From Desulfosporosinus sp. BRH_c37 (GTDB lineage Bacteria; Bacillota; Desulfitobacteriia; Desulfitobacteriales; Desulfitobacteriaceae), in contig LOEW01000239.1 in NCBI GenBank assembly GCA_001516045.1, forward strand, positions 1 through 64,000: a stretch of 64,000 bases of DNA, written 5' to 3'. Made by a program: the position numbers and the translations under genes. Below are positions 14,248-32,209 of the stretch, piece by piece. The notes beneath the pieces were generated by a model that searched no databases, had not been told where the DNA came from, and worked only from the letters and a program-made list of their open reading frames with translations. Position 1 is the stretch's first letter; each line of letters begins with the position of its first letter.

Positions 14248-15216
14248 GTGAGAGGACTGATTATTATGCTCCAAATGTTTGCTGATTATGTAGCATACAC
14301 ACTATTTGGGCTTCTACCGGACAGCCACCTTGGTGCCGCTGTTGACTTTTTTATCTATGATACGATTAAGATCTTTTTAATGTTAGGTACAATTATCTTT
14401 TTAGTTTCACTGATCCGTAGCTTTTTCCCACCGGAACGTACTAAGAAAATTTTAAGCCGTAAACGAGAATATGTTGGGAATATTATGGCGGCCTTGCTAG
14501 GGATCGTGACCCCGTTTTGTTCCTGCTCTGCAGTGCCGGTCTTTATCGGCTTTGTAGAATCTGGGGTACCCTTGGGGGTTACCTTTTCCTTCCTCATCTC
14601 TTCACCGATGGTGAACGAAGTGGCTTTGATTATGCTCTGGGGGATGTTTGGCTGGCAGATTGCAGCGATTTATATTACAACTGGGATTACCGTGGCCATT
14701 GTTGGCGGATTGGTGATTGGAAAACTTAAACTGGAACATTTGGTGGAGGGGTATGTTTACGACATCAAAATGGGCGAAACTGAATTGGCGGCCTTAACTT
14801 GGAGAGAACGGGTAGAATATGCTTGGGAATATGTTGTAGATATTCTGAAGAAGGTCTGGCCATATGTCATTATTGGGATAGCCATCGGCGGTGCTATGCA
14901 TGGCTATGCACCTGCTGATTTCTTGGTCAAATATGCTGGAAAGGATAATCTATTGGCTGTTCCTTTGGCAGTGCTCATCGGAGTACCTCTCTACTCCAAT
15001 GCGGCTGGGATCATTCCCATTGTCCATGTTCTGATGGAAAAAGGGATGGCATTGGGGACCGTTCTCGCTTTTATGATGGCTGTAACTGCTTTAAGTTTGC
15101 CAGAAATGATTATTTTACGCAAAGTTTTGAAACCCAAACTACTGGGTATTTTCGTTGGGATCATGACGGTGGCGATTATTTTTGTAGGGTATTTGTTCAA
15201 TGGGATACTTGCTTAA
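14248..15216 (+). CDS. ArsP/YraQ-type permease (copy 1)
   Basis: A 322-residue membrane protein of the same predicted-permease family as the gene at 11583, with two related halves, each of several membrane segments. Hallmarks are TPFCSCSAVPVFIGFVESGVP and IGVPLYSNAAGIIPIVHVLM. Near-identical to 50942-51910. The GTG at 14248 starts the track used here; an ATG at 14266 is an alternative. Members export organoarsenicals or are linked to thiol-metal stress. The operon with ArsR and a CxxC redox protein is a recurrent arrangement in anaerobes, suggesting metalloid efflux. The substrate is unproven. Confidence 0.8.
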   Translation: MRGLIIMLQMFADYVAYTLFGLLPDSHLGAAVDFFIYDTIKIFLMLGTIIFLVSLIRSFFPPERTKKILSRKREYVGNIMAALLGIVTPFCSCSAVPVFIGFVESGVPLGVTFSFLISSPMVNEVALIMLWGMFGWQIAAIYITTGITVAIVGGLVIGKLKLEHLVEGYVYDIKMGETELAALTWRERVEYAWEYVVDILKKVWPYVIIGIAIGGAMHGYAPADFLVKYAGKDNLLAVPLAVLIGVPLYSNAAGIIPIVHVLMEKGMALGTVLAFMMAVTALSLPEMIILRKVLKPKLLGIFVGIMTVAIIFVGYLFNGILA

Positions 15217-15288
15217 CTTGTTTTAGTCGTAGCAATAGATAGTTAATGCAAAATTGCAAATCAAGAGAAATACGAGGAGTGAATTGTA

Positions 15289-15534
15289 ATGAATATTAAG
15301 ATTTTGGGTTCCGGCTGTTCTAATTGCGCCAAGTTAGAAAAAGTTGTGCGAGAGGCTGTTGCGGATTTAGGGGTTGTCGTAGAGATCGAGAAAGTGCAAG
15401 ATGTGGCCAAGATTATGTCTTATGGGGTGATGAGTACTCCGGCACTCGTTATTGATGAAGTGGTCAAACTGGTGGGAAAAGTTCCTAACCGTGCGCGCGC
15501 GGTGGAGATATTAAAACAAGCTTTGCCTCAGTAA
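15289..15534 (+). CDS. Small thioredoxin-like CxxC redox protein (copy 1)
   Basis: An 81-residue glutaredoxin-sized protein: beta strand MNIKILG, active site GCSNCAKLEK with CxxC at residues 10 and 13, the cis-proline region MSTPALVIDE and a glycine-valine turn. This matches the MTH895-type redox-active disulfide proteins. It is the third gene of the arsR-permease operon and could reduce or hand over thiol-bound arsenic to the permease. A duplicate lies at 52027-52272. Good ribosome site (GAGGAG). Confidence 0.85.
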   Translation: MNIKILGSGCSNCAKLEKVVREAVADLGVVVEIEKVQDVAKIMSYGVMSTPALVIDEVVKLVGKVPNRARAVEILKQALPQ

Positions 15535-15673
15535 GCTTAGTATGCTACCGAGATCTTATCAATGATGGGGTTGCGTTTCAGGAGTGTAGGGTGCACATCT
15601 AATCTCCATTTGGGTGGATATTCCATGAGATGGAAAGGGCGAGTCTATGTCGGGAGAAGAAATAGAAAATTTG

Positions 15674-15718
15674 AACAGGGCTGTAAGAAAACTCAGTTTT
15701 CTTACAGCCCTGTTTTTT
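15674..15718 (+). terminator. Strong rho-independent terminator
   Basis: Perfect 20-base arms (aacagggctgtaagaaaact and its complement) around a one-base loop, followed by TTTTTT. It ends the arsR-permease operon; the homologous terminator of copy 2 is at 52461-52509. Confidence 0.9.
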
Positions 15719-15779
15719 CGCAGAGCTATCACAAGGATGGATGCGGCAAGAAGATTTTCGACGGTGCTGTGATTGAAGT

Positions 15780-15891
15780 AGATAAGCACTTTTTAATGAC
15801 CAGTCTTGATTTCGAACGGGAAAACAAAATCGACTCTACGGATGAGGAGTTAGAACAGGTTCTAACAGCTCTTAAGGCCATACTTGATTAA
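15780..15891 (+). pseudogene. C-terminal fragment ending NKID...LTALKAILD
   Basis: An open frame from 15562 crosses the terminator and is not a credible gene as a whole. Its last part reads ENKIDSTDEELEQVLTAL. A very similar tail (NKIDHTEEEFEQLLTAVKG) lies out of frame at 23323-23391 after the DGC gene. The two are remnants of one unrecognised protein family, found at the edges of two redox operons. Confidence 0.5.
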
Positions 15892-15996
15892 AATCTGTTA
15901 AGTCGTTCATTGATAAGGGGAATTTTGACCTAGGTCAAAGTAATTGCGGCCAATGCAAGCTAAAATGAAGATGAGAAAAAATTAGGAGGTCATGTC

Positions 15997-16212
15997 ATGA
16001 TCAAAAAGACTTATCAATTGGAAACAGTAAGCTGCCCCAGCTGTATCGCAAAAATTGAGGGAATGCTCAAAAAAACACAGGGCATTAATGAATCCGAGGT
16101 GTTGTTCAACACTTCTAGAGTGAGAGTCACCTTTGACGAAACTATGATTGAATCAGACGCGATTAAGAGTAAAATTGGCAAACTCGGATACAAAGTATTA
16201 GGAGAAAAGTAA
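15997..16212 (+). CDS. CopZ-like heavy-metal-associated domain protein
   Basis: A 71-residue HMA-fold metallochaperone with a beta-alpha-beta-beta-alpha-beta pattern and the metal site SCPSC at residues 11-15. It lies 21 bases before a P-type ATPase that itself lacks an N-terminal HMA domain, so it probably delivers the metal or acts as a detached N-terminal domain. The serine and proline around the cysteines differ from the usual MxCxxC of copper chaperones. The metal is unknown. Confidence 0.82.
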   Translation: MIKKTYQLETVSCPSCIAKIEGMLKKTQGINESEVLFNTSRVRVTFDETMIESDAIKSKIGKLGYKVLGEK

Positions 16213-16233
16213 GCTGAGAAAGGGGGTATCGGA

Positions 16234-18087
16234 ATGTCTAAAATGACCAAAGGCCAAAGGATAATAATTTCGGGTCTACTGGTGGCAATATCCTTTATAT
16301 TAGACAAAACAATAGGCTATGAGATGGTAACCATTATCGTTATGATTGCTTCCACTATTGTGGCCGGTACCCCTATTTTTATGAAAGCGATTGGGGCGTT
16401 AAAGTACCGCATTGTCGGGATTGACGCCCTAGTAACTATAGCAGTGATTGGTGCGCTGTTTATTGGGGAATATTGGGAAGGAACGGCAGTGACCTTCCTA
16501 TTTATGTTTGGCGATTACTTAGAGTCTAGAACAATAGAAAAAACAAGGTCCTCCATAAAAGCCCTGTTTGATTTAGCGCCGGATACAACAAGAGTCCGAA
16601 GGAACGGAACAGAAGTGGAAATAAGTCCCGCAGAGGTGCTCAAAGGGGATCAAGTGGTCGTCAAACCCGGAGAGAAGATTTCTGTAGATGGTACGATTAT
16701 TGAGGGGTCCGCATATATCAATCAAGCAGCGATTACCGGGGAATCCATTCCTGTCAGTCGAGGGGTTGAAGAAACTGTCTTTTCAGGAACCATCATTGAA
16801 TCAGGGTATTTAGTGATTCGAGCCGACAAAGTAGGAGACGATACGACCTTTGCCAGAATCCTGCAAATGGTAGAAGAGGCACAGGATAAAAAGGCCAAGA
16901 CACAAAAATTCCTGGAGAAGTTTTCAAGATATTATACTCCGGCAATTATTGTGCTGGCAGTTCTATTCTATCTTTTTACGAAAGATGTTGTCTTGGCTTT
17001 AACCTTATTGGTCATCGCTTGCCCGGGAGCCCTAGTCATCTCTGCACCGGTATCCATAGTAGCAGGTATAGGAAATGGAGCAAAGCACGGGGTGCTGGTC
17101 AAGGGCGGAGAAATCATGGAGAAGCTAGGTACTATTAAGGTCATCGCCTTTGATAAAACAGGGACCTTAACCATAGGGAAGCCTGCGGTAAAGCATATTA
17201 AAACGTATGATATTGCCGAAAATGAATTGTTAAGGCTTGCGGCCATTGGAGAATTATATTCCGAGCACCCATTAGCAAAAGCAATTATCAACGAAGCAAC
17301 CCAAAAGCTTGGAGCTCTTAAGGAAGTGCCGGAAGAGGCTGAGCTCATAACGGGACAAGGCCTTTCGTTTAAATTCGGTGGGAAAACCTATTGGATTGGC
17401 AACAGAAAGCTATTCGAAGCAAATGGAATTAATATCGAAAATCAGGAAGAGTATTTAAGATCGGAAGAGAACAAAGGGCAAACAGCTGTCATTGTAGGAG
17501 ATAGGGAAAGAGTTCTTGGCATTATATCCATCGCGGATAGTGTGAGAGAGGATGCCAAGAAGCTGATTTCCGACCTGAAATCCCTGGGAATACAAAAGGT
17601 TGTTATGCTGACAGGGGATAATCAAAGGGCTGCTAAGGCAATATCCGATGAATTAGGTCTGGATGATTATTATGCGGAACTTCTTCCGGAGGATAAGGTG
17701 CGAGTGTTGGGTGAGCTTCAAGAAAAGCATGGCAAAACGGCTATGGTTGGAGATGGAGTCAATGATGCCCCTGCATTGGCCTCGGCGGATTTAGGGATTG
17801 CGATCGGTGGAGCGGGAACAGATGTAGCAATGGAAACAGCAGACGTAGTTCTCATGTCGGCAGAAGTAAAAAAACTAACTTATGCGATAGGCTTAAGCCG
17901 AGCCACTGTCAGGAACATGAAGCAAAATATTTACTTCGCACTATTTGTAGCCGCCTTACTGCTGGCAGGAGTCTTGGTTAAGACAGTAAATCTGTCCTTT
18001 GGTATGCTAATTCATGAGTTATCGGTGCTGTTGGTAATTATAAATGCAGTTAGGCTGATAGGATATGAAGAAAAGGGAAGCTTTTGA
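16234..18087 (+). CDS. P1B-type metal ATPase with CPG motif
   Basis: A 617-residue heavy-metal P-type ATPase without a metal-binding N-terminal domain. Standard signatures are visible: TGES (actuator), DKTGTLT with the phosphorylated aspartate, the HP of SEHPLAKA, and GDGVNDAPAL. The membrane motif reads C263-P264-G265 (IACPGALVIS) rather than CPC. The final helices carry an HELS motif in place of the DxG of Zn/Cd pumps or HEG of P1B-4 pumps. Six to eight membrane segments are visible. It is coupled to the CopZ-like gene and followed by a Crp/Fnr regulator. Direction is presumably efflux; the ion cannot be assigned. Confidence 0.88.
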   Translation: MSKMTKGQRIIISGLLVAISFILDKTIGYEMVTIIVMIASTIVAGTPIFMKAIGALKYRIVGIDALVTIAVIGALFIGEYWEGTAVTFLFMFGDYLESRTIEKTRSSIKALFDLAPDTTRVRRNGTEVEISPAEVLKGDQVVVKPGEKISVDGTIIEGSAYINQAAITGESIPVSRGVEETVFSGTIIESGYLVIRADKVGDDTTFARILQMVEEAQDKKAKTQKFLEKFSRYYTPAIIVLAVLFYLFTKDVVLALTLLVIACPGALVISAPVSIVAGIGNGAKHGVLVKGGEIMEKLGTIKVIAFDKTGTLTIGKPAVKHIKTYDIAENELLRLAAIGELYSEHPLAKAIINEATQKLGALKEVPEEAELITGQGLSFKFGGKTYWIGNRKLFEANGINIENQEEYLRSEENKGQTAVIVGDRERVLGIISIADSVREDAKKLISDLKSLGIQKVVMLTGDNQRAAKAISDELGLDDYYAELLPEDKVRVLGELQEKHGKTAMVGDGVNDAPALASADLGIAIGGAGTDVAMETADVVLMSAEVKKLTYAIGLSRATVRNMKQNIYFALFVAALLLAGVLVKTVNLSFGMLIHELSVLLVIINAVRLIGYEEKGSF

Positions 18088-19345: not shown

Positions 19346-19351
19346 GTGCGA

Positions 19352-20752
19352 GTGATCGATAAAAAGGATCAATCAATACATATCTGCATTCTTGGCGGCG
19401 GCCCTGCAGGATATGTAGCGGCAATACGGGCAGCTCAGTTGGGCGCCAAAGTGACCCTTGTTGAGGATAGAGAGGTTGGAGGAACTTGCCTTAATCGGGG
19501 ATGTATTCCGACTAAAGCACTATTGAAAACAGCGGAAGTCTTATCAATGATCAGTAAGTCTAAGGAATTGGGCATCGCCTCAGCAGTTTCGTCGGTCGAT
19601 GCAAGTGTTGGCAAGGCCAGGAAGGATCGAGTGGTAAAAAGTCTGAGGATGGGTGTAGAGCACTTGCTTGCCAAGAATGGGGTTGAAGTATTACGGGGCA
19701 AGGGTTGGATTGAATCCCCACAAAGGGTAACTGTAAAAACCTCGGACGGAGAAGTTGCAGTCAATTGTAACAGGTTGATTATTACTACAGGTTCAGAACC
19801 CTTAATCCCAGATATACCTGGCGTTATGTTAGATGGAGTTATGTCCAGCGATGAGGCTCTTGAACTAACGAAAGTCCCAGAAAGTATAACCATCATAGGG
19901 GCTGGGGCTATCGGGATGGAATTTGCGACTCTGTTTAATTCGTTGGGTTCCAAGGTTAATGTGGTCGAATTTCAAGAGACGATTCTACCGAGTGAAGACA
20001 AGGAAATTACAGCAGAACTCTTGAAGATCATGAAGAGGCAAGGAATTAAATTTTTGCTGGCAGCGAAGGTTAAGGAGATTTGCAAATCTGAGAATGGACT
20101 GGAGATCCTGGTCAAGGTAGGAGAAAAGGAAGTATCCCTACTCACAGAAAGGGTTCTTGTTGCCGTCGGAAGAAAGTTGGGGGGGTTATCACCGGACATC
20201 AGCGCTCTGGGTATCGAGGTGAAGAAAGGTGCTATCGTGGTTAATGAGAGTATGGAAACCAAGGTGACCGGGGTTTATGCGGCTGGTGATGTGATCGGCG
20301 GCAGTCTTCTGGCGCATTTGGCTTTTGCCGAGGGTCGAATAGCTGCTGAAAATGCCATGGGCATGCCAAGCAGACTGAATTACAGGGCTGTGCCTGCTTG
20401 TGTGTATACCAATCCGGAAGTGGCGTCGGTTGGTTTAAGTGAAGATCAAGCGATAGCCAAGGGCCTTACAGTTAAAGTTGGGCGCTTTGATTTTCGGAAT
20501 AATGGCAGGGCCTTATGTCATGGGGAGAGGGAGGGATTTGTTAAGGTCATAACCGAGGAGGGCACCGGGGTTATTCTTGGTGCGCGGATTCTGGGACCTC
20601 ATGCGTCGGAATTAATTTCCGAAATAACTCTAGCCGTTAGCCTTGGGGTTAAAGCAGAAGTCCTGGCAGACATGATCCATCCCCATCCAGCATTGGCTGA
20701 AGCAGTGATGGAGGCGTGTGGTGATGCCATAGGCAGGGCAATTCATAAATGA
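19352..20752 (+). CDS. lpdA: Dihydrolipoyl dehydrogenase
   Basis: A 466-residue flavoprotein disulfide reductase. The FAD-binding GGGPAGYVAAIRAAQLG, the redox disulfide GGTCLNRGCIPTKALL, the NAD-binding GAGAIGMEFATLFNSLGSKV, the second FAD motif GVYAAGDVIGG and the C-terminal HPHPALAEAVMEA with the catalytic His-Glu pair are all present, so it should be active. GTG at 19352 is five bases after GGGAGG. No 2-oxoacid dehydrogenase or glycine cleavage genes are near; the only lipoyl-type domain in the window is in the DGC-GcvH fusion at 21551. It therefore probably reoxidises or reduces that lipoyl group. The dithiol target would also be sensitive to arsenite. Confidence 0.93.
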   Translation: MIDKKDQSIHICILGGGPAGYVAAIRAAQLGAKVTLVEDREVGGTCLNRGCIPTKALLKTAEVLSMISKSKELGIASAVSSVDASVGKARKDRVVKSLRMGVEHLLAKNGVEVLRGKGWIESPQRVTVKTSDGEVAVNCNRLIITTGSEPLIPDIPGVMLDGVMSSDEALELTKVPESITIIGAGAIGMEFATLFNSLGSKVNVVEFQETILPSEDKEITAELLKIMKRQGIKFLLAAKVKEICKSENGLEILVKVGEKEVSLLTERVLVAVGRKLGGLSPDISALGIEVKKGAIVVNESMETKVTGVYAAGDVIGGSLLAHLAFAEGRIAAENAMGMPSRLNYRAVPACVYTNPEVASVGLSEDQAIAKGLTVKVGRFDFRNNGRALCHGEREGFVKVITEEGTGVILGARILGPHASELISEITLAVSLGVKAEVLADMIHPHPALAEAVMEACGDAIGRAIHK

Positions 20753-20887
20753 TACTAGAGGCACGGAGCTCGAGGCACAAGGTTCGAGTACAAGTGCGCT
20801 TCAGGGTCTTGAGATCTTCGTAAGGCGTGAACTTTATATACTATGTTATGCGCAAAAGAACTATTGATTGAATTGGAGGAGTTAAAC

Positions 20888-21262
20888 ATGTCTGAAAAAC
20901 AATTACCAGGTTTCATTATGTGTGTCTGCACAGGAAAATGCCCAGGTTTTCAAGCTATGGATATCTGGGATTTCATTAACCAGGTTAGGGTCGAGCTGCC
21001 GGTGGAATACGGATTTATTCATCCCCAGTTATGTGAGGAAGATGGAGATCGGTTCCTGGCAGATTATCTGAAGGCTCATAGAAAAGTTATCATAGGCGCT
21101 TGTGCTCCGAATATGCAGAGAAAAATGTTCAAACAAGCCTTTAAGGATGCGGGACTGGACATTGAAAAGGATGCCTATATGCTCGATATTCGGGATATGA
21201 CCAATGAAGCGGCGTTCAAAGTGGTAGAAGACTTAGTAGAAAAAATCGAAGCGGAGGGATAA
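20888..21262 (+). CDS. HdrA N-terminal-domain-only protein
   Basis: A 124-residue protein that aligns with the first domain of heterodisulfide reductase HdrA: a start strand with MCVCTGKCPGF (in HdrA VCHCG), a tyrosine-cysteine segment FIHPQLCEEDG, and the HdrA-like VIIGACAPNMQRKMFKQAFKDAGL. The flavin and ferredoxin domains of HdrA are missing. Five cysteines remain and could bind an Fe-S cluster. The ATG at 20888 follows TTGGAGGAG. It is two bases from a ferredoxin gene, so it may act with it as a split electron-transfer unit. Confidence 0.75.
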   Translation: MSEKQLPGFIMCVCTGKCPGFQAMDIWDFINQVRVELPVEYGFIHPQLCEEDGDRFLADYLKAHRKVIIGACAPNMQRKMFKQAFKDAGLDIEKDAYMLDIRDMTNEAAFKVVEDLVEKIEAEG

Positions 21263-21264
21263 AC

Positions 21265-21558
21265 ATGTCTGAAGAAACCTTCATGGGGGTTCCGAGAAAT
21301 ACCATCGACTGGAGTCCGATTATTGACTTTGACAAATGTAACTACTGTATGGAGTGCGTAAAATTTTGTCCTCACCAAGTGTATGAAGTCCGGGAAACCG
21401 AGGAGCAAAAGCTGATTGTAAAAAATCCGGACAACTGCGTTGTCTTCTGCCGAGCATGTGGTAAAACCTGCGGTGTGGATGCCCTGACCTTCCCAGATAA
21501 AGGAGCGACCACCAAGAAGATCAAGGAAACTCGAAAGGGGATGGCAGGCAATGAGTAA
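21265..21558 (+). CDS. Two-cluster ferredoxin-like protein
   Basis: A 97-residue protein with CNYCMECVKFCP, a normal [4Fe-4S] motif, and a second, modified set CVVFCRACGKTCGVDA. It overlaps the DGC-GcvH gene by eight bases, so expression is coupled. Likely partner of the HdrA-like protein. A second ferredoxin of different sequence ends the cluster at 23425. Confidence 0.82.
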   Translation: MSEETFMGVPRNTIDWSPIIDFDKCNYCMECVKFCPHQVYEVRETEEQKLIVKNPDNCVVFCRACGKTCGVDALTFPDKGATTKKIKETRKGMAGNE

Positions 21559-22423
21559 AAGCTTTGCTGTCTTACCTTGTAATGGGCTAGATAAAGGCGC
21601 TGGCTGTATCGCCCGGGAAATAGCGTTAAACCTTATCGAGAAATCCGATAGTGAGATGATTTGTCCTGTTCTATATCGGATTGCGGATGCCAGATACAAT
21701 AAAATCGCTCAAGAAAAACCACTGCTCGTGATTGACGGCTGTCAGACGCGATGTGCCAGCAAGCTTGCTTCGGAAAAAGGTTTAAAAGTTACGGCTAAAG
21801 TAACGGTAACAGAAGAAGCAAAAACCAGGGGGTTTGAGCTGGGAGACTCCTTAAGGCTCGGAGAAAATGACCTGAAACTGGCCGGGCTGGTTGCCGATGA
21901 ATTACTGCTGGAGACGGAGACGCAAAAGTCGCCAGGAAGTGAAACTACAGCAGAAAGCGCATCACTCTACCCTGAGACCTATGATTATGAAGTTTATAAA
22001 AAAGACAAATTTATATTCAGAGTGCCCAAAGAAGGCCTGTTATTCAATGAAAATGACAGTTGGGTCTATATATCGGGCAATAAGGCTCGGGTAGGGGTTA
22101 CGGATTATGTCCAGCAAAGCTTGTCGGATATCATGTTCTTTACCCCACCGGTGGTGGGGAGTGACGTGGAACAGTTCGGGGAGTTAGGCGCGATTGAGTC
22201 AGGGAAGGCTGTTTTCGAAGTCGTCTCCCCGGTATCAGGTAAGATCATCGCTGTTAATGAAGAACTTTCGGTAGCCCCAGAACTCATTAATCAGAATCCC
22301 TATGAAAAAGGTTGGATTGCCGAAGTGGAACTCTCCGATTTGGAAAATGATAAAGAATTGCTGCTTGAGTTTGAGGGATATTTCACGATTCTAAAAAGAA
22401 AGGTCGATGATTTTCATGTCTGA
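21551..22423 (+). CDS. DGC-domain and GcvH/lipoyl-carrier fusion
   Basis: A 290-residue two-domain protein. Residues 1-118 are a DGC (putative zinc-binding) domain: LPC at C10, C19, the name-giving IDGCQTRCA at 61-69. After a flexible linker (about 120-140), residues 141-290 read like glycine cleavage H protein: RVGVTDYVQQSLSDIMFFTPP, then ESGKAVFEVVSPVSGKI with the lysine K219 at the lipoylation position, and the typical YEKGWIAEVEL near the end. No P, T or L2 glycine cleavage genes are near, but lpdA is 800 bases upstream. A lipoyl arm fixed to a cysteine domain suggests thiol or sulfur transfer. The fusion itself is directly visible; the function is inferred. Confidence 0.85.
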   Translation: MSKSFAVLPCNGLDKGAGCIAREIALNLIEKSDSEMICPVLYRIADARYNKIAQEKPLLVIDGCQTRCASKLASEKGLKVTAKVTVTEEAKTRGFELGDSLRLGENDLKLAGLVADELLLETETQKSPGSETTAESASLYPETYDYEVYKKDKFIFRVPKEGLLFNENDSWVYISGNKARVGVTDYVQQSLSDIMFFTPPVVGSDVEQFGELGAIESGKAVFEVVSPVSGKIIAVNEELSVAPELINQNPYEKGWIAEVELSDLENDKELLLEFEGYFTILKRKVDDFHV

Positions 22424-22817
22424 GACGATTAAAGTAATCCCCTGCAGTGGGATGGGTAAGGTCTATGGCCTTGTGGCGAGGGAAAGCGCGTTGAAGGTTG
22501 TTCAGGAGTTGTGTCCGAAGGAATCGAGCACGGTATGCCTCGCCTATATCGTAACGGGGGATCCAGAAGCTAAGGAATTGATCGAGGGAGAAAAGTGTAT
22601 TACCCTCGATGGTTGCCCTGCCATGTGTGCGGCTAAAAATGCAGAGTTGGCAGGTGGCATCGTCGCGGAAAAGATAAGGGTTGTCGATTCGTTTCGGAAA
22701 CACAAAGGAGTCAAGCCAGGAACCGCGACGGAACTCACAGAGGAAGGCTGGTTAATTGCGGATGAAATCGCCGGTGAGATAGCCGAAAAGGTTAAATTAT
22801 TGAGTAGGGAGGGTTAA
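22416..22817 (+). CDS. DGC-domain putative zinc-binding protein
   Basis: A 133-residue single DGC domain with C10 in VIPCSGMGK and LDGCPAMCAAKNAELAG. It overlaps the fusion gene by eight bases. ATG at 22416 gives the same MSxxxxVxPC start as its neighbour; an ATG at 22407 is also possible and closer to AGAAAGG. It closely resembles the DGC half of the fusion and probably arose from it or acts beside it. Family function is unknown; metal or persulfide binding is likely from the cysteines. Confidence 0.82.
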   Translation: MSETIKVIPCSGMGKVYGLVARESALKVVQELCPKESSTVCLAYIVTGDPEAKELIEGEKCITLDGCPAMCAAKNAELAGGIVAEKIRVVDSFRKHKGVKPGTATELTEEGWLIADEIAGEIAEKVKLLSREG

Positions 22818-22819
22818 AG

Positions 22820-23314
22820 ATGTCCATAAATATGGTGAAAATAGGTGTTGTATCCTGTAGCGGTGAGGACTGTTTGGGAGGAACGATCTCAAGATTGGCA
22901 ACCCGGAAAATGCTGGACGAAGTTCGTCCCAACGCGACCGTGACAATATGTCTGCCCCTTTTTCTAGCAGGCGGCGTGGAAGAACGAGGATTTGCTGAAC
23001 AGTTCCCAACGATCTCTGTGGACGGATGCTCCAAGGCTTGCGCCAAAAGGGCTACGGAGAAATATAGTGGTAAGGTGAGTGCTGCAATTGACGTTTCGGA
23101 TTTGATCGGCAAAGAAGTTGCCGAAGCAGGGGCCTTGTCCACCAGAAACCTAACGGATGAACACAAAGCCATGGTCGAAAAGTTGGCCAGTGAGATAACA
23201 ACTAAGTTTGACGAAGTATTGAGGGTCGCGCAAAGAGATCAAGTGGCAAAAGGTCTGGCCATGGTGGGAGGGAGATCCTCTGGGGGCTGCGGCTGCGGGT
23301 GCGGGCCGAAGTAA
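22820..23314 (+). CDS. DGC-domain protein with Cys-Gly tail
   Basis: A 164-residue DGC protein: VVSCSGEDCLGG near the start, then VDGCSKACAKR, and a C-terminal GGCGCGCGPK. The gene begins two bases after the stop of the previous DGC gene. The Cys-Gly tail resembles the tails of the ferredoxin at 23425, ArsD at 59480 and the DUF2703-like protein at 12831. An unrelated open segment with the NKIDHTEEE tail follows at 23323. Confidence 0.82.
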   Translation: MSINMVKIGVVSCSGEDCLGGTISRLATRKMLDEVRPNATVTICLPLFLAGGVEERGFAEQFPTISVDGCSKACAKRATEKYSGKVSAAIDVSDLIGKEVAEAGALSTRNLTDEHKAMVEKLASEITTKFDEVLRVAQRDQVAKGLAMVGGRSSGGCGCGCGPK

Positions 23315-23424
23315 CGAATAAAATCGACCACACGGAAGAGGAATTTGAACAGCTTCTAACTGCAGTCAAGGGTATGTTAGAGTAGCTTTTTTAAAAAAAC
23401 TAATTTTCAAAAGGAGAACCTAGA

Positions 23425-23667
23425 ATGACGACAAAGTGGTATCCAATTATTAATTACGATAATTGCATTGAATGTGGGTCCTGTATTAATAAATGCTCAC
23501 ACGGTGTTTACGAAAAGGACAGCGCAAAGCCTGTCGTGATCTATCCTGAGGGATGTATTGATCACTGCACTGGTTGTCAGGCTTTATGTCCGGCAGAAGC
23601 AATTAGCTATTTCGGAGATGACGGAAATAAGACCGGAAACACGACCTGCAGCTGTGGTTGTGGATAA
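23425..23667 (+). CDS. Ferredoxin with CSCGCG tail
   Basis: An 80-residue ferredoxin with CIECGSCINKC and CIDHCTGCQALCP, enough for two [4Fe-4S] clusters, and a C-terminal CSCGCG tail. Good GGAG ribosome site. Followed after 29 bases by the HesB-like gene, so a role in cluster assembly or electron delivery within the same operon is plausible. Confidence 0.85.
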   Translation: MTTKWYPIINYDNCIECGSCINKCSHGVYEKDSAKPVVIYPEGCIDHCTGCQALCPAEAISYFGDDGNKTGNTTCSCGCG

Positions 23668-23696
23668 TATTAATAGACAAAAAGGAGAGCTTCGGC

Positions 23697-23987
23697 ATGG
23701 TTAGTATTACAGAAACCGCAGCGGCTAAGGTAAAGGAAGTATTGGAACAACTAAACTTAGAATCCGGGTATTTACGTCTTTATGTTATAGGCTTTGGCTG
23801 AGGGGGTCCGAATTTCGGTTTGACTCTGGATGAGTCGATGAAAGAAAACGATATGTTAGACGAGGAACATGGTGTAAAGATACTGTCCGATGACAAGCTG
23901 GTATCCTATCTAGAGGGGGCCGTAGTTGATTATGCCGAGGGTAGTTTTGAGATTAATACACCCGCAACCGGAGGAGGCTGCGGGTGA
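23697..23987 (+). CDS. HesB/IscA-like protein with in-frame UGA, probable selenoprotein
   Basis: Reading through one TGA gives a 96-residue HesB/IscA-family protein: MVSITETAAAKVKEVLEQ, then VIGFG-U35-GGPNFGLTLDES, and a C-terminal GGGCG. The TGA at 23799-23801 stands exactly where the family has its first cluster-binding cysteine (GxGCxG). HesB-like selenoproteins with Sec here are a known family. Both sides of the TGA stay in frame and conserved, arguing against a dead gene. A hairpin gactc-tggat-gagtc lies at 23822-23836, its loop about 26-30 bases past the TGA, and a second possible stem spans 23804-23826; either may be the SECIS. AAAGGAGAG precedes the ATG. Confidence 0.82.
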
Positions 23988-24089
23988 AAATAAGAGGAAT
24001 CTGACAGAGAATTATTGGCAATAAACGGCGAGAGTCACAGCGCTGTCAACACTTTGTCAAAGACAACTTAAAAAAGGTATGCAATAAAA

Positions 24090-24126
24090 GAAGATGATTC
24101 CTGAATTGAACGGGAGTCATCTTCTT
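24090..24126. terminator. Terminator after the lipoyl/DGC/selenoprotein operon
   Basis: Arms aagaagatgattcc and gggagtcatcttctt pair with small mismatches around a loop, followed by a T-rich stretch. It closes the operon. Confidence 0.65.
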
Positions 24127-24324
24127 ATTTACACCAATGGCTAAGATGATTAAATAAGCTTGAACTTGCTCGCCGCTTTGAAGTGTAATTAGGGCCCCAT
24201 TCTTCTTTTTGGCAAAGGATTTTACCCCATCCTCCAAAATGAGGTTGACACCCTTGTTAAAAATGTGCTCATGGATAATGGCGGCCATTTCATAATCCAG
24301 AGGAGCCATGACCTGATTACTCAT
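24127..24324 (-). pseudogene. Fragment of NADH oxidase/CoA-disulfide reductase
   Basis: The minus-strand frame reads MSNQVMAPLDYEMAAIIHEH and later GVNLILEDGVKSF and LQSGEQVQAYLIILAIGV, the central segment of pyridine-nucleotide-disulfide oxidoreductases of the NADH oxidase/CoA-disulfide reductase type. Both the N-terminal FAD domain and the C-terminal domain are absent, so this is an internal remnant. Confidence 0.65.
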
Positions 24325-24434
24325 CACAAACTTCTCCTTCAAATATAGATTTAAAAATAGCTCTTGAAATATCATAAAGTTAAAGTATCCTAGGATTAGT
24401 ATATTATAAAGCCATTATTTAGTTAAGAGGAGTT

Positions 24435-24560
24435 GATGTGGAGGCAGTTGCGGTAGCTGTCTTTGGTATCGCTTCAGATGTTGCTTTCTCGGCGGTAATC
24501 GGTCCTTTAGTTGAAGTGTTAGTCATGATTGCTCTGATAAATTCAACGCTCTTCTTCCAA
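24435..24560 (+). pseudogene. acr3: C-terminal fragment of acr3
   Basis: The frame reads [20 protein letters not shown] followed by [19 protein letters not shown], the last two helices of Acr3. It contains exactly the end that the copy at 10075 has lost, and is closer to that copy than to the intact gene at 58097. The open frame continues to 24644 into unrelated residues. Non-functional alone. Confidence 0.8.
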
Positions 24561-24647
24561 TGCAAGTATTTTGGTAAAAATGGCTTACCAGAGCATGGCC
24601 AATATAATTTCTTGTATAAAATAAAGAATCCGAAGGGGACTTGAAAT

Positions 24648-24797
24648 ATGAAAAATGAAAATGAGAAATTATTTAATGAAAATAAGAACGCAGAGAAAAG
24701 TTCTGGAAATTTTGAAATAGAAGAACTTCCAGAAGAAAATGCTGACAATAAGAGTAAAAAGGTTGGCAAAGTCCTCTTTGAGCTTCTCGAAGGGTAA
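24648..24797 (+). CDS. Small acidic protein related to 12522-12713
   Basis: A 49-residue charged protein whose middle, NFEIEELPEENADNKSKK, matches FELEEVSEEKPDNK of the CCGG protein at 12522. The cysteine motif has become SSGN. It follows an acr3 fragment just as its relative follows a permease gene. A ribosome site (GGGGAC) precedes the ATG. It may be a decayed or repurposed member. Confidence 0.5.
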   Translation: MKNENEKLFNENKNAEKSSGNFEIEELPEENADNKSKKVGKVLFELLEG

Positions 24798-24863
24798 TAA
24801 CGAATTACTAAAAAATGGTACCGGTGGCCGTTGAAAGAGCAGTTGATAGTAATATTAAAACTC

Positions 24864-24884
24864 CCAGTCTGGGGGTTACAGAGT
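24864..24884. repeat. 21-base sequence shared with acr3 breakpoint
   Basis: An exact second occurrence of the sequence at 10972-10992 (begins ccagtctgggggttaca). Both lie beside acr3 remnants. It could be the end of a lost mobile element or a recombination target. Confidence 0.7.
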
Positions 24885-24918
24885 TTTCAAAATCAACACT
24901 TTTAACTGGTACTCTATA

Positions 24919-25053
24919 ATGTTGAACCCCCCGACCCGGTCACCATCAGGGTCAATACACGCCCTTGCAGGTTGGCTTTGACTTCCTCAAGCATCGACAC
25001 GACGGTAGCTTTGATATTGGAAAAATGCCTGAGATAGTTCTTAGACTATCGTT
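24919..25053 (-). pseudogene. Fragment of the giant activase gene
   Basis: About 135 bases match 37184-37320, near the start of the activase gene at 33133-37395, with scattered differences. It carries part of the first ASKHA ATPase domain only. It lies directly downstream of the acr3 fragment area and just beyond the glgA stop codon. Positions 25054-25134 show nothing recognisable. Confidence 0.8.
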
Positions 25054-25134
25054 ATAAACTTCAGGTGCGTTTTGGTGGATTGAGAACGAGCGTGGTCCTA
25101 TCGTCTTTTTGGAGCGCAGAGTGAATGATTAGGT

Positions 25135-26574
25135 CTAAGACATCTCTAATAACGACCTATAAATCTTAAGATACTCTTGAGCTGAACGCTCCAAGCTGAA
25201 ATTACTGTGCATGGCATTATCTTGAATCCGTTTCCAAGCATGTTGATCCTCACGAAATAACTTAATGGCCCGTTGTATAACATACAGTAATTCATGAGCG
25301 TTATAGTTAGCAAAGGAAAAACCATTTCCTCGTTCTGTATCGTTTTCATACGAAATTACAGTGTCGCTTAACCCCCCTGTATTCCGAACGACCGGAACCG
25401 CTCCATAGCGCATCGCCATCATTTGCGACATCCCACACGGTTCAAACCGCGAGGGCATGATAAATAGATCTGCTCCAGCAAAAATCTTGTGGGCCAGTTC
25501 ATCGCTATAAAGTGTACGCACGGCTAGCTTTTCTGGATATTTTTCAGCCAAGCAATGTAACCTGCTCTCATAAGACATGTTTCCCGCACCGAGAATGACA
25601 AATTGCACATCAAGGCTCATGATTTCTTCTAAAATATGAGCTACAAGATCGATCCCTTTTTGTTCGGTTAAGCGTGTGACCATCCCCAGGAGGGGAACGT
25701 CCCCTCTGATCGGAAGATTTAAGAGACTTTGTAAATACAGCTTATTGTCCAGTCTAGGCTGAGTAGAATCACGATAGGGGACTTTGAGGAGGGGATCTTG
25801 CTCTGGATTATAGAGATTATAATCTAAACCATTTAAAATACCCTTCAGAGATTCCGAGCGTTTTTGTACCCACCCCTCTAAGCCACGACCAAAATAAGCG
25901 GTCTGAATCTCGCGGGCATAAGTCGGGCTGACCGTCGTAATCTGATCGGCGTGGATCAGGGCCGCCTTCATATAACTGATTCCGCCCTCAAACTTCAAAG
26001 TATCCTCAGTATAGAACGACTTGTCTAATCCAAGCACATCATAGAGAACTTCTTCAGGGAAGATCCCTTGGTACTCCATATTATGAATGGTAAACACAGT
26101 CTTAAGCCGATGATGCAAGGGATCTTGTTGATAAAATGCTTTCAGCATCATAGGGATGAGGGCCGTATGCCAGTCATGCAAGTGTAGAATATCCGGCTTA
26201 CAGGCCGGAATGTGCCAAAGAGCTTCAAGGACAGCTCTCGAAAAAAAAGCAAATTGTTCGGCCTTATCATATTCATCATAGATACTTTGGCGACTAAAAT
26301 AGTAGTCATTATCAAGGAAATAATATTGGATTCCTTGATAGGTCATTTCTTCCAAGCCACAGTATTGACTTCGCCAGCCCACTGGAACCTTGAATTTACT
26401 GATGGATTGGAACTTTTGACGGAAATGATCAGGGATACCTTTGTATTTGGGCATGATTACACGCACATCCACGCCGAGACGTTGCAAAGCTGCCGGCAAA
26501 GACCCTCCCACTTCCCCTAAGCCACCCAGCTTTAGAAAGGGTGTAGCCTCCGTAATTACAAAAATTACCTGCAT
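25135..26574 (-). CDS. glgA: Glycogen synthase, ADP-glucose type
   Basis: A 479-residue GT5 glycosyltransferase. The N-terminal ADP-glucose motif (KLGGLGEVGGSLP; usually KTGGLGDV) and the C-terminal acceptor region with FIMPSRFEPCGMSQMMAMRYG and RNTGGLSDTV are present. Length is normal for bacterial GlgA. It extends alpha-1,4-glucan chains. It lies 11 bases after glgP on the same strand; no glgC, glgB or glgD are in the window, so the set is incomplete here. It is housekeeping carbon storage and has no evident link to the metal genes. Ribosome site GGAGGGA. Confidence 0.93.
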   Translation of the reverse strand: MQVIFVITEATPFLKLGGLGEVGGSLPAALQRLGVDVRVIMPKYKGIPDHFRQKFQSISKFKVPVGWRSQYCGLEEMTYQGIQYYFLDNDYYFSRQSIYDEYDKAEQFAFFSRAVLEALWHIPACKPDILHLHDWHTALIPMMLKAFYQQDPLHHRLKTVFTIHNMEYQGIFPEEVLYDVLGLDKSFYTEDTLKFEGGISYMKAALIHADQITTVSPTYAREIQTAYFGRGLEGWVQKRSESLKGILNGLDYNLYNPEQDPLLKVPYRDSTQPRLDNKLYLQSLLNLPIRGDVPLLGMVTRLTEQKGIDLVAHILEEIMSLDVQFVILGAGNMSYESRLHCLAEKYPEKLAVRTLYSDELAHKIFAGADLFIMPSRFEPCGMSQMMAMRYGAVPVVRNTGGLSDTVISYENDTERGNGFSFANYNAHELLYVIQRAIKLFREDQHAWKRIQDNAMHSNFSLERSAQEYLKIYRSLLEMS

Positions 26575-30852: not shown

Positions 30853-31185
30853 GTGGAAGCACAGATCATATCCATGAAGAGTGATTTTTTTAAGGCTTTA
30901 GCACACCCTACTCGGATAAGTATCCTCGAACGACTGGCGAAGAACGGCGAAGAAGTGTGTGTTTGTGACCTGATTGAGGATTTGGGAGTTGAACAGTCAA
31001 ATTTATCCCAACACTTGAGTATTTTGCGCAAACAACAAATCATTACATCTACTAAAGTGGGCTTAAAAGTTATGTATCGAGTCAAATATCCTGAAGTACT
31101 AACCATTTTAGAGAAGGTCCAGAAGATTCTTTCTCAACAATTTCAAGAAGGGGAAGCTTTGATGAGGCATCTTGCCGACCGGTAA
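30853..31185 (+). CDS. arsR: ArsR-family repressor
   Basis: A 110-residue ArsR protein: FFKALAHPTRISILERLAKN, EEVCVCDLIEDLGVEQSNLSQHLSILRK with the cysteine pair, and a wing VGLKVMYRV. GTG start after GAGGGG. It belongs to a different subgroup from the arsR copies at 266 and 13917. A damaged duplicate is at 42283. It probably binds the AT-rich inverted repeats in this region. No efflux gene follows directly; the next genes are small cysteine proteins. Confidence 0.87.
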   Translation: MEAQIISMKSDFFKALAHPTRISILERLAKNGEEVCVCDLIEDLGVEQSNLSQHLSILRKQQIITSTKVGLKVMYRVKYPEVLTILEKVQKILSQQFQEGEALMRHLADR

Positions 31186-31383
31186 TAGGCTGGAAATGTT
31201 ATTCTTAAAGATGTAGTCCTCTGGCTTAGCGAAACCAAATTTTAGATTGAAAAGCTTCCTGTAGTAGACTTGCTTGTTGTTCTATTGCAGGAGGTTCTTT
31301 AATATAATTTGAATCTGTAATTAAAGATTGTATTGGCTAAGAGAAAATAGATGACTAAAGTAGGAAAATGGAGGGTGTGGCGT

Positions 31384-31620
31384 ATGAGAACATGTCGTAA
31401 CTGCGGTCTGAGTATTGAAGAAGGCAACAATCTAGTAAGCTGCTTTAAGTATAAGACGACGAATAATTCAGAAGAGGAAAAAGCTGATTGCCTCTATTAC
31501 ATTGAAAAAATTATTGAGGATGGTGAACCTTTACCTCCAATACAACATCTTCTTTTGGTAGAACAAGAATTAGGAAAAGGAAAAATGAAAATCAGTATAA
31601 ATGATGGTTTTCGACTATAA
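31384..31620 (+). CDS. Small zinc-ribbon-like protein
   Basis: A 78-residue protein beginning MRTCRNCGLSIEEGNNLVSC, with a CxxC knuckle, a later cysteine and a CLYY. No family is recognised. GGAGGG precedes the ATG at 31384; an upstream ATG at 31351 lacks a site. Its stop codon directly abuts the YnfA fragment, so the gene may have been joined to it by deletion. Confidence 0.55.
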   Translation: MRTCRNCGLSIEEGNNLVSCFKYKTTNNSEEEKADCLYYIEKIIEDGEPLPPIQHLLLVEQELGKGKMKISINDGFRL

Positions 31621-31622
31621 TC

Positions 31623-31826
31623 CTCATTCGTTACGGTGTCATACCCACCTTGCGGAAATTTCCAGATTTTGGCAGAGTTTATGCAGCTTATGGAGGGATT
31701 TTCATCTTTCTTGCTGTCTTATGGGGTTGGGGAATTGATCATAAAGTACCCGATATGTACGATTGGATCGGGACTGTTATATATCTAGTTGGTGTTTCTA
31801 TAATGTTGTGGGCTCCGCGTCATTAA
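31623..31826 (+). pseudogene. C-terminal part of YnfA/UPF0060 membrane protein
   Basis: Reads LRYGVIPTLRKFPDFGRVYA, then YGGIFIFLAVLWGWGIDHK and WIGTVIYLVGVSIMLWAPRH, the last two helices of the UPF0060 (YnfA) family. The first half and the start codon are missing. UPF0060 genes are often found in arsenic islands. Confidence 0.75.
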
Positions 31827-31864
31827 ATTTATAGACCCTTCGCAGTGAAAGGAATGGCTTAATC

Positions 31865-32209
31865 ATGAATATTGGAATTTTCCCTTGCCAAGGCCGATGT
31901 AATGTCAGTATGATGACAAAAACGGTGGCTGAATTTTTCGTTGATGACGAAATAATACGTGTACTACCTCATTTAAGTTTACCTCTTGAAAACGAAAGTG
32001 GGGTTAAGGAAAAGTATATTGCCCTTAATGGCTGCCCAGCAAAATGTGCTTCTAAGGAATTTGATCTCGCCAGAATTAAACCAGATGAGGAAATCGTTAT
32101 GACTAAGGATTTTGATCCAAAAAACAATGAAAAATATGCAGAGTTGTTAAATATTGATGAAGAGGTATTCTTAGTGCAGGAAGTGATCGAACGATTATTG
32201 GGTTCGTAA
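31865..32209 (+). CDS. DGC-like protein, NGC variant (copy 1)
   Basis: A 114-residue protein of the DGC/putative zinc-binding group: FPCQGRCNVSMMTK at the start and LNGCPAKCASKEF in place of DGC. Near-identical to 62032-62379. It lies before xdhC with 23 bases between. Repeated presence near arsenic genes suggests a role in thiol or metalloid handling, unproven. Confidence 0.78.
   Translation: MNIGIFPCQGRCNVSMMTKTVAEFFVDDEIIRVLPHLSLPLENESGVKEKYIALNGCPAKCASKEFDLARIKPDEEIVMTKDFDPKNNEKYAELLNIDEEVFLVQEVIERLLGS

Follow-up and report, generated by a model that had tools for sequence, protein, structure and literature searches.

The gene at positions 23697-23987 of the window, by which we mean the whole stretch of 64,000 nucleotides from Desulfosporosinus sp. 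BRH_c37 that was analysed, is very probably functional, with a HesB/IscA (A-type) iron-sulfur carrier that contains selenocysteine as its product, and stands last in a redox operon. Our high confidence belongs to the selenoprotein reading, and the clients that we propose for the protein lie outside it. We build the case for a selenoprotein on comparison, i.e., on the TGA found in 42 homologues and on frozen synonymous sites, because the hairpin downstream of this codon is by itself unremarkable against chance.

A HesB/IscA frame spanning an in-frame TGA

A preliminary description made from the letters alone had placed the TGA at 23799-23801 at the first cluster-ligand cysteine of an otherwise intact HesB/IscA frame, and frame, Pfam match, and alignment agree with this placement. 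The features of the gene are as follows:

23682-23687, forward strand: ribosome-binding site AAGGAG, recognised in the sequence 9 nt 5′ of the ATG
23697-23987, forward strand: HesB/IscA-like selenoprotein gene, predicted to encode 96 residues with Sec35 (97 codons when the terminal TGA is counted)
23799-23801, forward strand: in-frame TGA (codon 35), predicted to be read as Sec, with TGA or Cys in homologues at this codon and an aligned Cys in solved relatives
23808-23818, forward strand: hairpin CCGA-ATT-TCGG, first of the two, with conservation restricted to TGA copies; the fifth pair present in the relatives is lost here
23820-23838, forward strand: hairpin UUGACUC-UGGAU-GAGUCGA, second of the two and probably the core of the SECIS (stem of 7 bp, loop of 5 nt with G at its positions 2-3, -7.7 kcal/mol, spaced 25 nt from the UGA)
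23985-23987, forward strand: terminal TGA (codon 97), then AAA TAA; aligned with C101, the third ligand Cys of IscA
24089-24125, forward strand: strong 15-bp inverted repeat 3′ of the gene, found by folding

From the ATG at 23697, the frame is open on both sides of TGA35 up to the TGA at 23985-23987, and the read-through protein scores 33 bits against Pfam Fe-S_biosyn (PF01521; cut-off 26.3) over residues 2-84 with the TGA spanned by the match. Its alignment with HI1723, AQ_1857, and E. coli IscA, which are IscA/ErpA-type proteins of solved structure, runs from one end to the other, and position 35 falls on their first conserved cysteine. The predicted structure adopts an IscA/SufA fold (mean pLDDT 84) with AQ_1857, IscA, HI1723, and SufA as top PDB matches, and PF01521 score and fold together place the product in the HesB/IscA domain family. 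Comparison with the nearest homologues shows purifying selection both 5′ and 3′ of TGA35 (dN 0.12-0.22, with dS saturated or above 1.8). The inverted repeat at 24089-24125 is probably the end of the transcript; it has no T run and is absent from the output of our terminator scan.

When contigs were scanned with the single window protein, the sole close relative came from a Peptococcaceae MAG (51% identity), and the rest were distant IscA/ErpA proteins. A plasmid search returned nothing but ErpA-like proteins with less than 60% identity, so that no plasmid with the window copy was found.

Homologues and selenocysteine decoding machinery

We searched 61 genomes, detected matching HesB genes in 50 of them, and extracted 77 distinct HesB-family genes, a few of which are distant. 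The codon aligned with TGA35 is TGA in 42 and Cys in 30 of these genes (72 in total), which are mostly from one genus and family and therefore do not represent independent lineages. The preliminary description had named Cys homologues at residue 35 and the Sec genes of the host as checks of its reading, and both are indeed present: the host genome carries the complete set for Sec decoding, with selA on contig C303, adjacent genes for SelB and tRNA-Sec (selC) on C212, and a selD on C74 that contains an in-frame TGA of its own. It also encodes a second HesB selenoprotein (L001; contig C154, 1498-1827) with TGA at the equivalent codon and a full, Cys-rich C-terminus. A third HesB paralogue of the host (L002; contig C240, 1405-1773, minus strand) encodes Ser (AGT) in place of Sec, and its SECIS-like element has decayed (43 bits).

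Evidence for an RNA element downstream of TGA35

Comparison of TGA and Cys copies provides strong evidence for a Sec-specific RNA element in the 12 codons 3′ of the TGA. Synonymous codon identity, calculated as the share of gene pairs with the same amino acid that use the same codon, reaches 0.916 over codons 36-47 among TGA copies (n = 41) compared to 0.469 among Cys copies (n = 30), while the flanking codons show 0.51-0.55 in either set. This freezing, seen in the Sec copies only, coincides exactly with the hairpin region, and since TGA and Cys sets encode nearly the same peptide there, it is the RNA that is conserved. The two hairpins show pairing in 96.7% of cells for the TGA copies versus 82.2% for the Cys copies. 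A covariance model of the element matched only the three HesB genes in a scan of the whole genome, among them the copy with Ser (AGT), and an Rfam scan of 20000-26000 gave no match.

The hairpin reported by the preliminary description at 23822-23836 proved real and extends to 23820-23838, but the account of element and frame given there overlooked both the preceding hairpin at 23808-23818 and the coincidence of TGA97 with the third ligand Cys. Published constraints for bacterial SECIS elements ask for a loop of 3-9 nt, a stem of 4-16 bp, a G within the first two loop bases, a distance of 16-37 nt from the UGA, and at most -7.5 kcal/mol (PMC13188914). The hairpin at 23820-23838 lies within these bounds, with a loop of 5 nt, a stem of 7 bp, G at position 2, a distance of 25 nt as anticipated, and -7.7 kcal/mol. 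Its fold z-score against shuffled sequences is only -0.9 and not significant, and around 5% of all TGAs in the window have a comparable hairpin downstream (-6 kcal/mol or better). Covariation is scant as well, with one two-sided change in A1, because the TGA copies hardly vary. We counted neither shuffle statistics nor covariation as support for a SECIS.

Could this simply be an ordinary HesB gene of the Cys type in which a nonsense mutation or a base-calling error produced TGA35? The 4-residue loop deletion and the shortened C-terminus that set the window copy apart from close relatives would fit such a pseudogene or sequencing error. Yet the same codon is TGA in 42 homologues, purifying selection is strong 3′ of it, the frozen synonymous sites are specific to Sec copies, and the host has the full Sec machinery, which makes a defective or misread gene extremely improbable. 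For the selenoprotein that we favour instead, comparison strongly supports a scenario in which SelB with Sec-tRNA would bind the mRNA hairpin at 23820-23838 and the UGA at codon 35 would be read as Sec. The product would be a 96-residue protein of IscA fold in which, judging from alignment and predicted fold, the thiolate of the first cluster ligand gives way to a selenolate. Within the same genomes, synonymous sites are frozen in Sec copies and drift in Cys paralogues, a clean natural experiment from which the requirements of a bacterial SECIS can be mapped. The mapping would extend to the leading hairpin of the tandem pair, which has no place in the usual model of a single stem-loop.

The terminal TGA and the C-terminal ligands

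In the alignment with solved relatives, codon 97 falls precisely on the final Cys of their CGC motif, i.e., the third IscA ligand, and this raises the question of a protein with two Sec residues at the first and third ligand positions that would end in ...GGGCGUK before a stop. With TGA97 translated as Cys, the TIGR00049 score rises from 58.6 to 63.5 (cut-off 58.8), a TAA follows TGA97 after a single AAA codon, and at least two C-terminal Cys are found in 70 of the 72 genes compared to one in the window copy if TGA97 is a stop. Against a second Sec, there is no SECIS after TGA97, where the best hairpin within the permitted distance has +2.2 kcal/mol and shuffled sequences fold at least as well, and none of the homologues checked (72 genes) has TGA at the aligned codon, while 5 of these 72 genes, including the window gene, apparently terminate at a TGA. 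We consider the two-Sec protein very unlikely, and TGA97 is most likely a true stop.

A-type carriers are recognised by three conserved ligand Cys (35, 99, and 101 in IscA). In the window protein, the first would be Sec, the second is C95, and the terminal TGA takes the place of the third, so that function as an Fe-S carrier is assigned by analogy. Cluster binding by the window copy, which is one C-terminal Cys short, may be altered relative to IscA.

Relation to known protein families

HesB-like selenoproteins with a UxGP motif have been published (PMC1794560, PMC13188914), which bears out the preliminary description in calling them a known family. The window gene has UGGP at codons 35-38 with Cys homologues at codon 35 and, by domain, Sec position, motif, predicted SECIS, and host machinery, is a member of this family. 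It shares the Cys homologues, the downstream bSECIS, and the anaerobic host with the proteins described by TIGR01911, whereas the shortened C-terminal Cys motif and the operon-linked clade set it apart. Its scores fall below the NCBIfam cut-offs (46.6 versus 66.35 bits for TIGR01911 and 52.3 versus 85 for NF038090), but since four relatives sharing the TGA also fall short of them, we read these scores as a sign of narrow models and not of non-membership. Desulfitobacterium hafniense has a Cys form with a remnant SECIS (PMC1794560). The HesB-like selenoprotein of Methanococcus maripaludis, which carries the same family name but is archaeal, was identified via mutagenesis and 75Se labelling, and nitrogen fixation was unimpaired in a disruption mutant (PMC11097638). 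With IscA, ErpA, and SufA (PF01521), the window protein has in common the fold, the overall alignment, the first ligand position, and a Cys (C95) at the second, while it differs from these A-type carriers by Sec instead of Cys35 and a stop codon at the third ligand Cys. What is new here is mainly where the gene lies, as the last one of a redox operon that has been little described.

Linkage to a redox operon

The preliminary description had located the gene directly downstream of a redox operon, from which it is indeed separated by only 29 nt while having its own ribosome-binding site, and this linkage recurs in other genera. The operon comprises the following genes:

19346-20752, forward strand: dihydrolipoamide dehydrogenase-like protein, the first gene of the operon (domain match)
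20843-21262, forward strand: small protein resembling the HdrA N-terminus (weak match)
21265-21558, forward strand: 4Fe-4S ferredoxin (domain match)
21551-22423, forward strand: fusion of a DGC domain with a lipoyl carrier domain of the GcvH type (domain match)
22407-22817, forward strand: DGC-domain protein (domain match)
22820-23314, forward strand: DGC-domain protein with a CGCGCG tail (domain match)
23425-23667, forward strand: ferredoxin with a CSCGCG tail, immediately upstream of the selenoprotein gene (sequence and domain match)

The GcvH part of the fusion contains ESGKA, which we take to be a kept lipoyl-lysine context. Across a sample of 398 genomes of the phylum, nine encode a DGC-GcvH fusion, and none of the papers searched mentions both a DGC domain and GcvH. 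A second copy of the fusion, 89% identical and with its own operon, is located on contig C204 of the host genome. The closest operon analogue is the sHdr-LbpA system of sulfur oxidation (PMC6067878), which likewise features a GcvH-type lipoyl carrier, Hdr-related genes, and a lipoate ligase nearby; unlike this system, the window operon has only a short HdrA-like protein along with the DGC-GcvH fusion and several DGC proteins.

We examined 18 loci with a full-length DGC-GcvH fusion, the window included. In four of them, the operon has a HesB-family gene next to it, on either side and in three genera: the window copy (Sec) lies downstream, those of G032 and G064 (both Sec) upstream, and that of G040 (Cys) downstream. 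In the tree, the copies from G032 and G064 join that of the window (support 98/80), and three of the four members of the clade that the window copy forms with its closest relatives flank an HdrA-like/ferredoxin/DGC-GcvH/DGC operon. In G040, G045, and G064, we recognised by eye a lipoate-protein ligase-like gene next to the operon. Beside the operons of G032 and G064, we saw no match to dihydrolipoamide dehydrogenase.

How these observations are read decides what the selenoprotein might do. An extra copy of the gene could have landed downstream of the operon by chance and without any functional tie, which we regard as a serious possibility if somewhat short of an even chance. This would be in line with the lack of an adjacent HesB gene at most of the 18 loci, including most other copies in the same genus and the host's second operon, and with the closest relatives of the window copy belonging to another genus. 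Conversely, genomes have only about one to four HesB genes, so that repeated adjacency in 4 of 18 loci is unlikely to arise by chance; given the many operon copies without a neighbouring HesB gene, a functional tie is only suggested. More specifically, a dedicated Sec A-type carrier might serve an undescribed lipoyl/DGC/ferredoxin redox system made up of lipoamide dehydrogenase, HdrA-like protein, DGC-GcvH fusion, DGC proteins, and lipoate ligase, an idea that we put forward tentatively and consider rather unlikely as it stands. From the neighbourhood, the protein would most likely accept and pass on Fe-S units, or act as a selenolate/thiolate relay of metal or sulfur, for the neighbouring ferredoxins and DGC proteins. 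We infer that selenium may be used in the operon's pathway, as the preliminary description had proposed. The repeated presence of a Sec copy beside one redox operon suggests partners for HesB-like selenoproteins, and a dedicated carrier, if true, would make selenium part of that pathway and provide the first partner set for this family.

Genomic neighbourhood

The surroundings of the operon have a metal/metalloid flavour, with an ArsP-like permease, a small thioredoxin, and a P-type ATPase at 14248-18087 and an ArsR-type regulator together with another DGC protein at 30853-32209. A link to SAO (selenocysteine-assisted organometal), raised by the ArsP permease, the P-type ATPase, and HgcB-like ferredoxin scores, was dropped after none of eight scanned window proteins matched a Sao model. 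On the minus strand, 24046-24375 encodes a fragment of a pyridine nucleotide-disulphide oxidoreductase (109 aa) that is probably a truncated gene.

Remnants of DGC genes are found at 23315-23386 and 15562-15891. The former encodes TNKIDHTEEEFEQLLTAVKGMLE and matches the end of an intact DGC-like gene in G001 (locus L093), which sits between DGC3 and the second ferredoxin. At locus L099 (G094), a cysteine desulfurase-like gene, recognised by eye, lies downstream of DGC3, behind the DGC operon, and hints at sulfur trafficking.
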